Origin: Caulobacterales bacterium
GTDB lineage: Bacteria > Pseudomonadota > Alphaproteobacteria > Caulobacterales > Caulobacteraceae
Assembly: GCA_019510435.1 (NCBI GenBank)
Contig: JAEKKJ010000016.1
Span: 124,001-188,000, forward strand
Direction of reading: 5' to 3'
DNA: 64,000 nt
The notes under the pieces are model-generated. The model saw only the letters and a list, made by a program, of their open reading frames with translations, ran no database searches and was not told the DNA's origin. Made by a program: the position numbers and the translations under genes. This document shows positions 9,668 to 17,019 of the stretch, one piece after another (the stretch's first letter is position 1; each line of letters opens with the position of its first letter).

Positions 9668-9916
9668 TCAGCCCTCCGGCTTGCCCAGTTCCCGCCAGCT
9701 TCGCTCTTCCAGCTTGACGTCGAACTTCTTGGCCGCGGCCCGGATACGCTTCCAGGCCTCGTCGCGCTCCGCGTCGGTGACGCCCTCCACCTGGTCGAAG
9801 CGGGCGACGGCGTTGCGGACGTGGCTGGCGTCCTCCAGCGGCTCCTTGCGCTGTTTGGGGAAGGCGAATTGCCGGTCGCTCAGGTGGTCGCGGTCGGCTT
9901 CGTCGAGCCTGCTCAT
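9668..9916 (-). CDS. DUF6582-like small protein
   Basis: An 82-residue protein with the pattern 'LSDRQFAFPKQRKEPLEDASHVRNAVARF' and 'AWKRIRAAAKKF', matching a family of small proteins (DUF6582-like) found singly and in phage or conjugative contexts. The pattern describes a helical protein with a conserved 'HVRNA.ARF' core. The function is unknown. I chose the ATG at 9916 because it gives the family N terminus. Its 3' end abuts the composite repeat, and its 5' end faces the glycine riboswitch promoter region. Confidence 0.75.
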   Translation of the reverse strand: MSRLDEADRDHLSDRQFAFPKQRKEPLEDASHVRNAVARFDQVEGVTDAERDEAWKRIRAAAKKFDVKLEERSWRELGKPEG

Positions 9917-9963
9917 GATCAGGCCTCCGCTGCGCCGCCGCGATGCCGGCGGCGCGCCTGGAA

Positions 9964-9994
9964 CGTGCAGGGCGGTCGCTGGGCTCCCTGCACG
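9964..9994. promoter_or_regulatory. 9-bp inverted repeat between divergent units
   Basis: CGTGCAGGG is followed after 13 bases by its exact complement CCCTGCACG. It lies between the start of the DUF6582-like gene and a TTGAC element at 10006 that may be the -35 box of the gcv transcript. It could be an operator or a short hairpin; nothing distinguishes these. Confidence 0.45.
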
Positions 9995-10045
9995 CCCATG
10001 CCCCGTTGACTCGCGCCCCGGCCTCCACGACAACCCCTCCAACTC

Positions 10046-10240
10046 TCGCGGGAGAGGCCGGGCCATCGCGTCCGGCGCCGAAGGCGCAACCGCCCCGGAA
10101 ACGCTCAGGCAAAAGGACCGCGACGGGCTGATGAACGCTGGAAAGTTCCCTCCCTAGCCTTGGCGATGGAGGGGCGCCGAAGGAGCAGGGGATCGCCAGG
10201 CAAGCGGCGGTCCGAAATCTCTCAGGCTCTAGGGACAGCG
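10046..10240 (+). promoter_or_regulatory. Tandem glycine riboswitch controlling gcvT operon
   Basis: Two glycine aptamers are visible. Aptamer 1 (about 10046-10123) closes with TCGCGG / CCGCGA and contains GCCGAAGGCGCAAC and CTCAGGCAAAAGGAC. Aptamer 2 (about 10136-10240) closes with CGCTG / CAGCG and contains GCCGAAGGAGCA and CTCTCAGGCTCTAGGGAC. Only a 12-base linker separates them. This class senses glycine and usually switches the glycine cleavage genes on. About 80 bases of expression platform follow before the TTG start of gcvT. A candidate -35 TTGAC is at 10006. Confidence 0.95.
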
Positions 10241-10322
10241 GGGGCGTGCGAGGCCAGGGTCCTATCCCGCGAGGGATGATCGCCCGGGCGCGCGCCGGAT
10301 CGTCAGCTCAGGGTCGCCCAAC

Positions 10323-11453
10323 TTGTCCGAGACCGCCCTCAAGACCACCCCGCTCACCGAGGCGCACGTCGCGCTCGGGGCCCGCATGGTGCCGTTCGCC
10401 GGCTATTCCATGCCGGTGCAGTACCCGATGGGGGTGATGGCCGAGCACCTGTGGACCCGCGAGCATTGCGGGATCTTCGACGTCTCCCACATGGGCCAGG
10501 CCCGCCTCACCGGCGTCTCGCCGCTCTCGGCCTTCGAGGAGGTGGTCCCCGGCGACTACATCGGGCTGAAGGCGGGCAAGCAGAAGTATTCCGTGCTGCT
10601 GAACCGCCAGGGCGGGATCATCGACGACCTGATGGCGGGGCGGCCGACCTCCGCCGACGGGACGCCCGACGATGGCCTGTTCGTGGTGGTCAACGGCGCC
10701 TGCAAGGACAACGACTTCAAGGTGATCGACGACGAACTGGCCGGCCAGGTGGAGAGCCGTCGGCTGGAGGACCGCGCCCTGATCGCCGTCCAGGGTCCGG
10801 AAGCCGCAGCGGTGGTCAACGGCCTGGTCCCCGAGACCACGTCCATGGTGTTCATGGACATCCGCTCGCTGAAGGGCCTCGAGACCGACCTGATCGTCTC
10901 GCGGTCCGGCTACACCGGCGAGGACGGCTACGAGATCTCCGTACCGGCCGGCGAGGCCGCGCGGGTCTGGACCCTGCTGCTGGCCGATGAGCGTGTGCGG
11001 CCGATCGGGCTGGGCGCGCGCGATTCGCTGCGCCTGGAGGCCGGCCTGCCGCTCTATGGCCACGACCTGGACGAGACCGTCTCGCCGGTGGAGGCGGGCC
11101 TCACCTTCGCCATCAACAAGAACCGCCGCGAACAGCGCGACTTCCCCGGCGCGGCCCGGATCGTCAAGGAGCTGGCCGAGGGGCCGGCGCGGACGAAGGT
11201 TTGCCTGCGCGTGCTGGAAGGCGCCCCGGCCCGCGAGGGCGCCGAGGTGGCTGACGAGGCGGGAGCCGTGATCGGCGTCGTGACGTCCGGCGGCTATTCC
11301 CCCTGCCTCAAGGCCGGCATCGCCCTCGCCTTCGTGCCGCCCGCCTTCAAGGCCGAGGGGACGAAGCTGAAAGTCATCGTCCGCGGCAAGGCCCAGGCCT
11401 GCGAGGTCGTGGCCTCGCCGTTCGTCCCCCATCGCTACGTTCGCAAAGTCTAG
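10323..11453 (+). CDS. gcvT: Glycine cleavage system T protein (aminomethyltransferase)
   Basis: This 376-residue enzyme moves the aminomethyl group's methylene from lipoyl-GcvH to tetrahydrofolate, releasing ammonia. The N terminus '[28 protein letters not shown]' and '[10 protein letters not shown]' are diagnostic, and the folate-site segment '[20 protein letters not shown]' is intact. Translation starts at TTG, which may keep expression dependent on the riboswitch upstream. It is the first gene of a five-gene operon; gcvH follows after 11 bases. Confidence 0.97.
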
Positions 11454-11464
11454 GAGAGAGACCG

Positions 11465-11830
11465 ATGCGCTTCACCAAGGATCACGAGTGGGTCGAGCTG
11501 GAGGGCGATGTCGCCACCATCGGCGTCACCGCCCACGCCGCCGAGCAGCTGGGCGACGTGGTGTTCGTCGAGACTCCGGAGGTGGGCAAGACGGTGAAGG
11601 CCGGCGACGCCTTCGCCGTGGTCGAGAGCGTCAAGGCGGCCTCCGACGTCTACGCCCCGCTGTCCGGCGAGGTGGTCGAGGCCAACGCCGTGCTGGGCGA
11701 CGCCCCCGAGACCGTCAACGCCGACCCGGAGCGCGGCGGCTGGTTCGCCAAGCTGAAGGTCGCCAATCCTGCCGAGTACGAGGCGCTGATGGATCGCGCT
11801 GCGTACGAAGCCTTCCTGCAGACGCAGTAG
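11465..11830 (+). CDS. gcvH: Glycine cleavage system H protein
   Basis: This 121-residue lipoyl carrier shuttles the aminomethyl intermediate between the P and T proteins. The lipoylated lysine is K57 in '[15 protein letters not shown]', and the N terminus '[20 protein letters not shown]' is canonical. The SD GGAGAG precedes the ATG. It lies 11 bases after gcvT and only 3 bases before an unrelated 172-residue gene. Confidence 0.97.
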
Positions 11831-11833
11831 GTC

Positions 11834-12352
11834 GTGAGCTTCGACGTCTTTCTGATTTCGTCCAGCGCCTCGCCGAGCGGCGCGGAGGCGGACATGGCCC
11901 TGGATCGGGCGCTTGCGCTTTGCGGGGCACGGCGCGGCGCGACCGCCGACGCCGATATCGTGTTGCCTAGCGGTGACGATGTCGAATTCTTTGGCGCAGG
12001 GCCGGGCGAGGTCGGGGGAATGTTCGCTCTGCGCAGCCTCGACCAGGAGCTGGCCAACCTGATCTTCGAAGTCGCTGACGCGACGCGCTGCCTGGTCATC
12101 TTCCCAGGTGATGAACCGGCCTTCTTGCGCACGCCGGGACATGAGGGGGTGGCGCTCGACCCGGATGCTCCCGAGATCGTCGAGGTCGAAGACGCCGCCG
12201 CCCTGTTCCGGCGCTTGCACGGTCCTGCCGAGAGCTGGGCCGACTATGCCGGCAGCGTGACCGGGGCGCCTCCGCCCGACGCTCCGGAGGCGACCAACAG
12301 CGATCCCACGCTTCTCGACCGGTTCTTCAAGCGGTCGAACAAGAAAGACTGA
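11834..12352 (+). CDS. Unknown 172-residue protein inserted in the gcv operon
   Basis: A GTG-started gene between gcvH (3 bases upstream) and gcvPA (4 bases downstream). The protein opens '[16 protein letters not shown]', has a central '[22 protein letters not shown]' helix and an acidic middle, then a Pro-rich linker and a basic tail '[10 protein letters not shown]'. No signal peptide or membrane segment is seen. The opening loosely recalls small 'FDVFL' proteins that turn up as orphan immunity-like or hypothetical genes, but I cannot assign it. Third codon positions are visibly less GC-rich than in gcvH or gcvPA, which hints at later arrival. Confidence 0.75.
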
Positions 12353-12356
12353 CCCG

Positions 12357-13691
12357 ATGCGATACCTCCCCCTCACGCCCGATGATCGCGCCCAGATGCT
12401 GGGGGTGATCGGTGCGCCGGATATCGACGCCCTGTTCGCGCACGTGCCGGCCGCCGCGCGCCGCCGCGAGCTGTTCGACCTGCCGCTGCATGCGGGCGAG
12501 ATGGAGGTGGAGCGGGAGCTGGCGGGCCTGGCCGCCCTGAACCGCGCCGCCGGCGCCGGACCCTTCTTCTGCGGGGCGGGGGCGTATCGCCACCACGTGC
12601 CGGCCACCGTCGACCACGTGATCCAGCGCTCGGAATTCCTGACCAGCTACACGCCGTACCAGCCCGAGATCGCCCAGGGCACGCTGCAGGTGCTGTTCGA
12701 ATTCCAGACCCAGGTCGCCGCGCTCACCGGCCTCGATGTGGCCAACGCCTCCATGTACGACGGCTCCAGCGCCTGCGCGGAAGCCGTGATGATGGCCCAG
12801 CGCGTCACGCGCCGGGAGAAGGCCATCCTCTCCGGTGGGGTGCACCCGCACTATGCCGCCGTCACCCAGACCATCGCTCACGCCGAGGGCATGGAGATCG
12901 TGCGCCAGCCCGCGGCCATCGACGCCGAGGCCGCCGTGATCGCCGCGATCGACGCGGAGACCGCCTGCGTGGTGGTCCAGACGCCCAACGTCTTCGGCGT
13001 GGTCACCGACGTGAGCCGGATCGCCGAGGCCGCGCACGCCGCCGGCGCGCTGCTGATCGTGGTGACGACCGAGGCCGTCTCCTTTGGCCTGCTGAAGTCC
13101 CCGGGCCAGATGGGCGCCGACATCGCCGTGGCCGAGGGCCAGTCGATCGGCAACGCCCTGAACTATGGCGGCCCCTACGTAGGGCTCTTCGCCTGCCGCG
13201 AGAAGTTCGTGCGCCAGATGCCCGGCCGGCTGTGCGGCGAGACGGTCGATGCGGAGGGCCGGCGCGGCTACGTCCTGACCCTGTCGACGCGCGAGCAGCA
13301 CATTCGCCGCGACAAGGCCACGTCCAACATCTGCACCAACTCCGGCCTCTGCGCCCTGGCGTTCACGATCCACATGACGCTGCTGGGCGGCGCCGGGCTG
13401 CAGCAGCTGGCGCGGCTCAACCATAGCCGGGCGCGAGAGCTGAAGGCGGCGGTCGAAGGTGCGGGGCTGCAGGTGCTGACGCCGCGGTTCTTCAACGAGA
13501 TCGCGGTGCGGACGAAGGGGCCCGCCACGGCCCTGGTCGAGAAGCTGGCGGGCGAGGGCATCCTCGCCGGCGTGCCCTACGCCCGGCTCGACCCCCACGC
13601 CGGGCTGGACGACGTGCTGCTGGTCGCGGCCACCGAAACCACCACCTCCGACGACATCGCGGCCCTAGCCGCGGCCCTGAACGCAGGCTGA
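12357..13691 (+). CDS. gcvPA: Glycine dehydrogenase (decarboxylating) subunit 1
   Basis: This 444-residue protein is the N-terminal half of the split P protein, which decarboxylates glycine and loads GcvH. The opening '[19 protein letters not shown]' and segments '[16 protein letters not shown]', '[14 protein letters not shown]' and '[14 protein letters not shown]' are typical of GcvPA. This half carries no PLP lysine; it pairs with GcvPB as a heterotetramer. Its stop overlaps the gcvPB start (TGATG), fitting equimolar synthesis. Confidence 0.96.
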
Positions 13692-15271
13692 TGACCATGC
13701 AGACCATCGGACGCCCGACCCGCCCCGACAGCGACGCCGCCGCCGGCGGCTTCGCCTCCCTGACTGGCGGCCGCGGCCTGGTCCAGAGCGAGCCGCTGAT
13801 CTTCGAACTGGGCGGCTGGAACAAGACCGGTGTCGACCTCGAGCCGCCCGCGCAGGACGCGGCCGACCTCGACGGGCTGACCCGGGACGAGCTGGCGCTG
13901 CCCGGCCTCTCCGAGCCCGAGACGATGCGCCACTATGTGCGCCTGTCGCAGCTGAACCACGCCATCGACCTGGCGCTCTATCCGCTGGGCTCGTGCACGA
14001 TGAAGCACAACCCGCGGCTCAACGAGAAGGCCGCGCGCATGGCCGGCTTTGCCGACCTTCACCCGCTGCAGCCGGTCTCCACCACCCAGGGCGCGCTCGC
14101 GCTAATGGACCGCCTGGCCCACTGGCTGAAGACCCTCACCGGCATGCCGGCGGTCGCGCTGTCGCCCAAGGCCGGCGCCCACGGCGAGCTCTGCGGCCTG
14201 CTCTGCATCAAGGCCGCCCACGAGGCCGCCGGCCAGGGCCACCGCAAGGTCGTCCTGGTCCCCACCTCGGCCCACGGCACCAATCCGGCCACCGCGGCCT
14301 TCGTCGGCTACACCGTCACCGAGATCGCCCAGACCGCCGACGGGCGGGTCGACCTCGCGGACCTGGAGGCCAAGCTCGGCCCCGACGTGGCCGCGATCAT
14401 GGTCACCAACCCCAACACCTGTGGGCTCTTCGAGCGCGACATCGTCGAGATCAGCCGGCTCACCCATGCGGCCGGCGCCTACTTCTATTGCGACGGCGCC
14501 AATTTCAACGCCATCGTCGGGCGCGTGAAGCCGGGCGATCTCGGCGTCGACGCCATGCACATCAACCTGCACAAGACCTTCTCCACGCCGCACGGCGGCG
14601 GCGGGCCCGGCGCAGGTCCGGTGGTGTTGTCGCAGGCCCTGGCGCCCTTTGCGCCGGCGCCCTGGCTGGTCAGCGGGCCGGAGGGCCTGGCGCTGGTGGA
14701 GGAAGCCCGTGGCGAAGCGGCCCAGGCGTTCGGCCGGATGTGCGCCTTCCAGGGCCAGATGGGCATGTTCGTACGCGCCTACGCCTATATGCGCAGCCAC
14801 GGCGCCGACGGCCTGCGCCAGGTGGCCGAGGACGCGGTGCTCAACGCCAACTACATCAAGGCGCGGCTTTCCGACGTGATGAGCCCGGCCTTCCCCGAGG
14901 GGCCGTGCATGCACGAGGCCCTGTTCGACGACGCCTGGCTGGAGGGTACGGGAGTCACCACCCTCGATTTCGCCAAGGCGATGATCGACGAGGGCTTCCA
15001 CCCGATGACCATGTACTTCCCGCTCGTGGTGCATGGCGCGATGCTGATCGAGCCGACGGAGACGGAGTCCCGGCGCGAACTGGACCGGTTCTGCGAGGCC
15101 CTGCGTGCTTTGGCCGCAACGGCCAAGCTTGGGGAGGTCGAACGGTTCAAGGGCGCCCCCTTCCTCGCCCCCCTCCGCCGCCTTGACGAGACCCTGGCGG
15201 CGCGGAAGCCGAAACTGGCGTGGCGCCCAGAACCCGGCACTGTGGCGCCGGCGCCATTAGCGGCCGAATAG
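13691..15271 (+). CDS. gcvPB: Glycine dehydrogenase (decarboxylating) subunit 2
   Basis: This 526-residue subunit holds the pyridoxal-phosphate site: the lysine is in 'HINLHKTFSTPHGGGGPG'. 'YPLGSCTMKHNPRLNE' and 'PTSAHGTNPATAAF' are further P-protein signatures. The ATG at 13691 shares a base with the gcvPA stop; a second ATG two codons on is also possible. It ends the riboswitch-controlled operon. No lpdA is nearby, so the L protein must come from elsewhere on the chromosome. Confidence 0.96.
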   Translation: MTMQTIGRPTRPDSDAAAGGFASLTGGRGLVQSEPLIFELGGWNKTGVDLEPPAQDAADLDGLTRDELALPGLSEPETMRHYVRLSQLNHAIDLALYPLGSCTMKHNPRLNEKAARMAGFADLHPLQPVSTTQGALALMDRLAHWLKTLTGMPAVALSPKAGAHGELCGLLCIKAAHEAAGQGHRKVVLVPTSAHGTNPATAAFVGYTVTEIAQTADGRVDLADLEAKLGPDVAAIMVTNPNTCGLFERDIVEISRLTHAAGAYFYCDGANFNAIVGRVKPGDLGVDAMHINLHKTFSTPHGGGGPGAGPVVLSQALAPFAPAPWLVSGPEGLALVEEARGEAAQAFGRMCAFQGQMGMFVRAYAYMRSHGADGLRQVAEDAVLNANYIKARLSDVMSPAFPEGPCMHEALFDDAWLEGTGVTTLDFAKAMIDEGFHPMTMYFPLVVHGAMLIEPTETESRRELDRFCEALRALAATAKLGEVERFKGAPFLAPLRRLDETLAARKPKLAWRPEPGTVAPAPLAAE

Positions 15272-15928: not shown

Positions 15929-16255
15929 TTGTTCTTTACAAATGAGCTGACCTCCCATATTCTCGCCTTGGTGGTGATCGGGACGCGCTCCCGGCAGGGA
16001 CGAGGGGCTGCACGGGTGTGGGATCCACGACACGAACTCCTGGAGGCCAAAGGGCAGGGTTACGCATCACTCTTCGGCACGCGCTTCGGCCACTTGGTCA
16101 TGGGGTCGATTGAAGGACAGGCAGACCGACAACGTAATGTCGCTCGGGGTCGACCGATCGAGTGGCATGTCGCCGAGCGACCAGCCAGCGACGCGATACG
16201 GGAAAACATCTGGAAGTCCGTCCCTGATGTCCTGTTTGATCCGCCGAGGTGGTGA
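15929..16255 (+). pseudogene. C-terminal remnant of a Tox-REase-5 polymorphic toxin
   Basis: The translated tail 'DPRHELLEAKGQGYASLF' followed by 'QADRQRNVARGRPIEWHVAE' is the core of the Tox-REase-5 restriction-endonuclease-fold toxin domain, with the D...ExK catalytic pattern intact. Full toxins carry long N-terminal delivery regions (T6SS, Rhs or similar); here the open frame begins after a stop at 15878 and the best start is a TTG. The first 25 residues look unrelated to the domain, so the front has been lost. GC is lower than in neighbours. The stop overlaps the immunity gene's ATG (TGATG), preserving the original toxin-immunity junction. Confidence 0.65.
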
Positions 16256-17019
16256 TGGCGCCAGCAGATCTGGATGTCGAATTCCACCTGAGCCTCGGTC
16301 GGAAGATCGCGGTCGGCTGGAATGGCAATCGCCCGCAATCCGCCGAGGACATCGCCGGTCGCCTCAAGGCGATGGTGGAATGGCTGACCGCGATGCGAGT
16401 GCTTAAGACGTCGGTCTGGCCCCTCTTCGACCGCGTGCCACGGGCGAGCGACCCCACGGTCGCTTTGCTCCCCACCGCCGATCTGGCGCAGCTTATTGAC
16501 CGCAAGGCGAGGTTCGATCCTCCACCGTTGCCTCGGCCCGTCGGCCCTACGGGCTATCATTTCGTGGTGGCCTCGAACGAGCTTCCCCGCGAGCCCACGC
16601 GCGCCAGCATCTGGTTGAAGGTGGGCATGAGCCGTCCCAGCGATGAGAATACCGTCTTGCTCAACCTTCACGGTCGCCATCCGCTCTGGGCCGATGAGGC
16701 CGGCTGCCGCGAAGCATTGCGGTTCCTGATCGCGCTTTGGGGTGCGGAATGGGGCTTGATTGGGAGCGCTCTGCGGTCGGAGTTCAGCGGAGGCGACAGG
16801 CCCCCGCCCAGCTACGCCTTGGGGGATTTCGTCTGGATGAATTGGGCAAGACCCGGGGTGAGGCGCCAATGGAAGGCCGGGTTCTGGACCCCGCCTGCGC
16901 CCGCGGACGCCGTCGAGCCGTGGCTCAATGGACAGCTGTCGGTCTGGTCGGACGGGGCTGTTTCGAACGTTCCGGGGGCCGGCGACGTGCAACGCCAGCC
17001 GCCGAGATCCGACGGCTAG
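16255..17019 (+). CDS. Imm52-like immunity protein
   Basis: A 254-residue cytosolic protein that follows the toxin remnant with a TGATG overlap (GTG starts at 16249 and 16252 are alternatives). Position, size, lack of signal peptide and features such as 'AEDIAGRLKAMVEWL', 'LNLHGRHPLWADEAG' and 'VWMNWARPG' fit the Imm52 family, known as neighbours of Tox-REase-5 toxins (for example TsiT next to TseT in Pseudomonas aeruginosa). It would bind and block the nuclease. Retention beside a broken toxin suggests protection against toxins from competitors. Its TAG stop is part of a dispersed repeat boundary. Confidence 0.65.
   Translation: MAPADLDVEFHLSLGRKIAVGWNGNRPQSAEDIAGRLKAMVEWLTAMRVLKTSVWPLFDRVPRASDPTVALLPTADLAQLIDRKARFDPPPLPRPVGPTGYHFVVASNELPREPTRASIWLKVGMSRPSDENTVLLNLHGRHPLWADEAGCREALRFLIALWGAEWGLIGSALRSEFSGGDRPPPSYALGDFVWMNWARPGVRRQWKAGFWTPPAPADAVEPWLNGQLSVWSDGAVSNVPGAGDVQRQPPRSDG

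Follow-up and report, generated by a model that had tools for sequence, protein, structure and literature searches.

The glycine cleavage system is ancient and nearly universal, and four proteins are generally taken to make up the whole of it. The locus described here lies in a window of 64,000 nucleotides (the whole stretch of DNA that was analysed) and has in common with the known gcvT-gcvH-gcvPA-gcvPB riboswitch operon its gene order, its tandem riboswitch and the tight spacing of the core genes. What sets it apart from the standard operon is a further gene, referred to as X, that lies between gcvH and gcvPA, encodes none of the T, H, P or L components and is absent from most relatives. Text searches of the literature found no paper on X. 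A comparable operon context was described in Neisseria gonorrhoeae, where a gene of unknown function is co-transcribed within a riboswitch-linked gcv operon, gcvT-NGFG_01513-gcvH (PMC13104608). The likeness between the two genes is one of operon context: NGFG_01513 occupies the gcvT-gcvH slot of a distant organism, whereas X occupies the gcvH-gcvPA slot. A lineage-specific, riboswitch-kept, expendable and fast-evolving extra gene in the same slot of three genera would indicate that the system is controlled or localised at a level so far overlooked.

The operon order is gcvT-gcvH-X-gcvPA-gcvPB, downstream of two tandem glycine aptamers (Table 1); the ORF at 10323..11453 is taken to be gcvT by its recognisable sequence. 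Relatives of gcvH at about 73-90% identity are present in 94 of the genus's 101 genomes. X has a GTG start and 172 codons. The gcvH stop codon ends at 11830, leaving a gap of 3 bp before X, and the gcvPA ATG at 12357 follows X after 4 bp. These coordinates agree with the first-pass annotation, which had placed a gene for an unassigned 172-residue protein 3 bases after gcvH and 4 bases before gcvPA, and its proposal of riboswitch control is supported by the position of X behind the tandem aptamers. Promoter-like and terminator-like sites were sought in 11400-12500 and none was found, which makes co-transcription of X with the gcv genes likely.

Table 1. Coordinates in the window of X, its parts and the surrounding operon.
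Feature	Coordinates	Strand	Basis
Glycine riboswitch aptamer 1	10039..10130	+	RF00504, 65.6 bits (gathering 32)
Glycine riboswitch aptamer 2 (tandem)	10133..10244	+	RF00504, 31.0 bits, E=1.7e-4, one bit below gathering
gcvT, aminomethyltransferase	10323..11453	+	ORF, TTG start per ORF listing, recognisable sequence
gcvH, lipoyl carrier protein	11465..11830	+	ORF
X, 172 aa, candidate accessory family of the gcvH-gcvPA slot	11834..12352	+	ORF, orthologues, profile homology
X, predicted folded part, residues 1-130, beta-alpha-beta-beta-alpha-beta core (ferredoxin-like)	11834..12223	+	AlphaFold2 pLDDT about 79-97 per block
X, low-confidence Pro/Ala/acid-rich linker, about residues 131-157	12224..12304	+	pLDDT about 60
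X, conserved C-terminal tail, about residues 158-169	12305..12340	+	Near-identical in G113 and G063; counterpart of RLSDALFGK elsewhere
gcvPA, glycine decarboxylase subunit 1	12357..13691	+	ORF
gcvPB, glycine decarboxylase subunit 2	13691..15271	+	ORF

Intact orthologues of X (184 and 187 aa, ∼51% identity) were found in the same slot of two other genomes of the genus, G113 and G063. The dN/dS ratios (NG86) of the three orthologue pairs were 0.41, 0.50, and 0.26, which are rough values due to the high dS of two of the three pairs (0.83 and 1.03); the corresponding ratios were 0.10-0.13 for gcvPA and 0.19-0.36 for gcvH. We concluded from these comparisons that X encodes a genuine protein, kept by purifying selection, whose rate of change is several times that of gcvPA. 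Its third codon positions are less GC-rich than those of its neighbours, as had been noted earlier: GC3 was 0.798, compared with 0.936 for gcvT, 0.934 for gcvH, 0.937 for gcvPA, and 0.920 for gcvPB (0.92-0.94 in all). The median over 50 coding-like ORFs in the window was 0.93, and X ranked near the bottom of them.

A profile was built from the three genus copies and recovered more copies in the taxonomic family; a wider profile was then made. The wider profile had matches in 22 of 390 genomes, including one (G122, E=0.008) that is probably due to chance. X was present in the gcvH-gcvPA slot of 18 out of 173 surveyed gcv operons, all within the taxonomic family of the window: three in the window's genus, 12 in genus g24 and three in genus g16. 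The spacing of these 18 copies ranged from -1 to 6 bp on the gcvH side and from -1 to 12 bp on the gcvPA side. Copies outside the gcv slot were detected in G142, G140 and G408, together with a second copy in G342; all of them lack the C-terminal tail described below, and three have a different C-terminal part. The freestanding relatives L125 (in G142) and L245:5117-5965 (in G140) lie near a putative glutathione S-transferase gene, a neighbourhood that suggests a second conserved niche in two genomes.

Other searches gave no further members. The sole match in a class-wide search of 289 alphaproteobacterial genomes was the window's own copy, so that about 285 other alphaproteobacteria were without one; tblastn against plasmid and phage records found no family member, and a contig scan with the single window protein as query gave no match. 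The wide-family profile contained no stretch with enough conservation for such a scan. The window protein had no match up to E=10 in Pfam and NCBIfam, core components T, H, P and L included, in line with the earlier statement that its domain is not recognisable. Searches of Pfam, NCBIfam, PADLOC, and PHROGs with the protein or the family returned nothing convincing, and 19 members had no match up to E=1 among the PADLOC defence families. Identity between family copies is only about 20-50%. The three subfamilies were found to be homologous by hhalign at 98.9, 98.7, and 97.8% probability (98.9 and 98.7% for the window-type profile against the others). The predicted ferredoxin-like core and the conserved C-terminal tail are also common to the subfamilies, which together with the profile comparison makes them one protein family. 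Judged from these database searches, the family is previously undescribed and restricted here to one bacterial family.

The first-pass annotation had left open whether X is a newcomer or a conserved helper of the P protein, and had taken broad absence from relatives with normal operons as a sign of chance insertion. Broad absence was indeed found, and X is not a helper of general conservation: only 3 of the 89 operons surveyed in the window's genus carry it (86 are without it), and it is missing from the majority of species that have gcvH and gcvPA. The repeated occurrence in the same slot excludes a single chance insertion, and the residence of X in this slot in 18 genomes of three genera indicates that it is old in the operon. 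Low GC3 is also family-wide (0.73-0.91 across the 18 slot copies) and is not a mark of recent import. By the operon survey (18 of 173, always the same slot), X is neither an insertion by chance nor a helper of the P protein in every species. Natural test pairs exist in the form of carriers and near relatives that lack X but have similar flanking genes.

The tree of gcvH and gcvPA requires eight genus-label changes over nine sampled genera, which is the minimum, so the operon core is inherited vertically at the genus level. Presence or absence of X on this tree takes at least 13 state changes, a total in which gain and loss are not separately countable from the present data; a single basal gain would require 30 losses. 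Gene and operon distances among carriers were correlated (Mantel r 0.62, p 0.0002), indicating that X travels mostly with the operon. The window-type clade includes the G361 and G326 copies from g24 and the freestanding G142 copy. An AU test rejects grouping of the G326 copy with those of the carriers whose operons are closest to its own (p=0.0003), although a single clade holding all g24 copies was not rejected (p=0.07). The most economical reading of these trees is old residence with many losses, plus one or more replacements that were non-vertical or paralogous.

AlphaFold2 models were obtained for the window protein (pLDDT 83.8, pTM 0.73) and for a g24 copy, the latter from an alignment without window-type sequences (pLDDT 84.8, pTM 0.73). 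Both models show a beta-alpha-beta-beta-alpha-beta core, a low-confidence stretch and a short C-terminal helix; in the g24 model the low-confidence stretch comes after a long helix. The predicted architecture begins with a ferredoxin-like domain, continues with a flexible linker and closes with a short amphipathic or basic tail. Structure prediction, which had been proposed as a check, gave confident models with a predicted ferredoxin-like core but no confidently similar solved structure: there was no confident match in the PDB by sequence profile or by fold, or in a viral fold library.

The tail is the best-conserved element in most slot copies. The window-type tail, LLDRFFKR followed by a few residues, is common to G113 and G063, and eleven copies that otherwise differ widely share the ending [RK]L[ST]D[AM]LFGKxx. 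The last residues are DLLFGKAV in the G264 copy and DFLFGKAV in the G201 copy, and hhalign aligns the LLDRFFKR tail with tails of this type; the correspondence between LLDRFFKR and RLSDALFGK rests on position and pattern only. Wobble bases at the Leu, Arg and Gly codons of the tail vary, which indicates conservation at the protein level. Overlap with the gcvPA ribosome-binding site was considered as the sole cause of tail conservation and was ruled out by the same varying wobble bases. Of 13 genomes searched with a DNA pattern for LSDALFGK, six contain it, each exactly once and within X; it is absent from the three gene-lacking genomes.

We tentatively favour the reading that X is an accessory factor which the cell can do without, which is induced by glycine and which docks through its tail on a conserved partner, either a cleavage-system protein or the membrane. 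X would be made together with GcvT, GcvH, GcvPA, and GcvPB when glycine is abundant, through the tandem riboswitch, and the tight junctions would probably allow translational coupling. The fast-evolving domain may be the variable working or regulatory part, and the tail would dock on a partner that is nearly invariant across the bacterial family (GcvP, GcvH or the inner membrane), X tuning or localising the complex at high glycine. The benefit would depend on lifestyle, so that X would often be lost. This reading is supported by the 18 tight slot copies in three genera, profile homology, purifying selection, the absence of the tail from outside-slot copies, the correlation of gene and operon distances, the restriction of LSDALFGK to X, and the agreement of the two AlphaFold2 cores. 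Against it stand the low count of carriers (18 of 173 operons), the 13 or more state changes, the lack of a confidently similar solved structure and the mixed hydrophobic-moment results for the tail.

Direct binding to GcvP or GcvH was weakened by a covariation test on gcvH and residues 1-300 of gcvPA. The raw association of alignment columns with X presence gave a best p=7e-6 of 592 tests. On phylogenetically independent pairs, no association of gcvH or gcvPA(1-300) columns with X presence was found; only nine pairs were usable, so the result is not decisive. It is doubtful that X is, more specifically, a fast-diversifying subunit that regulates or tethers the cleavage complex, under induction by the riboswitch and attached by its C-terminal peptide, with repeated losses and one or more exchanges between lineages.

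Nearly as likely as the favoured accessory role is that X is an operon passenger with a function unrelated to glycine cleavage. The slot would then be a permissive, well-expressed landing place, and the presence pattern would result from gain, loss and recombination through conserved flanks. The patchy presence of X, with its many state changes, fits this explanation, as do the freestanding copies elsewhere and the wide distance between the G326 copy and those that its operon relatives carry. The content of the slot in other operons points the same way. Operons without X have a gcvH-gcvPA gap of 2-285 bp in the window's genus, the longer gaps consisting mostly of palindromic repeats, and a gap of 4-215 bp with similar repeat content in g24. 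Two g16 genomes hold other genes in the slot, an OsmC-like gene (E=1.7e-14; G208, L236) and an HTH_73 gene (E=2.2e-22; G286, L242); these unrelated genes suggest that the slot may be merely permissive, and it appears from the gap sequences to be an insertion hot spot within the operon. Pseudogene remnants of X were sought in gene-less slots, and none was convincing. However, random landing would not be expected to place one family in one slot of three genera with such tight junctions, nor to give the slot copies a tail of their own, and gene and operon distances correlate.

The palindromic repeats in the gcvH-gcvPA gaps are of several unrelated types (e.g., in L040, L192, L197, and L210). Examples are TGTCATCCCGG...CCGGGATGACA and CCACGAACCACACGAAC...GTTCGTGTGGTTCGTGG.

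The C-terminal membrane-targeting tails of MinD and FtsA consist of a short hydrophobic and basic helix after a linker. The predicted X tail resembles them in this, and an amphipathic tail of the MinD/FtsA kind could put the ferredoxin-like domain on the inner membrane, with or without the cleavage complex, making X a peripheral membrane protein. The tail combines hydrophobic residues with K/R, is predicted to be helical and is located after the low-confidence linker. The G361 copy (L124:1498-1965) ends differently, and another frame reads GFLSRLFGRN, which shows the same combination of residues; this tail was probably disrupted by a frameshift or sequencing error in the draft genome. Amphipathicity is statistically clear in some copies only, the hydrophobic moment being at or below 5% of shuffles in 5 of 18 tails (including the three from the window's genus) and non-significant in many others, and the last 20 residues carry a net charge of no more than 0 to +3. 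We consider a peripheral membrane protein unlikely as an explanation of X.

E. coli GcvR is a glycine regulator of the ACT-domain type, and X might similarly be an allosteric sensor of glycine or another amino acid, its ferredoxin-like domain acting like an ACT domain on the complex or on transcription. The predicted strand and helix order is compatible with that of ACT domains, and also of ribosomal protein S6 and the ZipA C-terminal domain; the ACT-containing proteins SerB2 and aspartate kinase were among the weak fold matches, and the riboswitch context would suit such a sensor. However, Foldseek gave only weak ferredoxin-like resemblances (no E below 0.01, TM by query at most about 0.36), X has no sequence match to these domains, ferredoxin-like folds are common, and no member had an ACT match in Pfam. 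A sensor of this kind is highly improbable.

A spurious or decaying ORF, which the low GC3, the absence of a known domain and the apparent frameshift behind the missing tail in at least one draft copy (G361) might suggest, is refuted in practice by intact orthologues in 18 genomes, dN/dS below 1 and synonymous wobble variation within the conserved tail.

The genes on both sides of the operon were also inspected. Just downstream, a short ORF at 15929-16255 shows a weak match to the final part of a Tox-REase-5 toxin domain, at an E of 0.031 that falls short of the cutoff. The ORF that comes after it, at 16249-17019, has low GC3 (0.789) and no family match, and its candidacy as an immunity gene is a guess. 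Upstream of the riboswitch, the divergent gene at 9668-10066 on the minus strand matches DUF6582 (E=1.6e-20).
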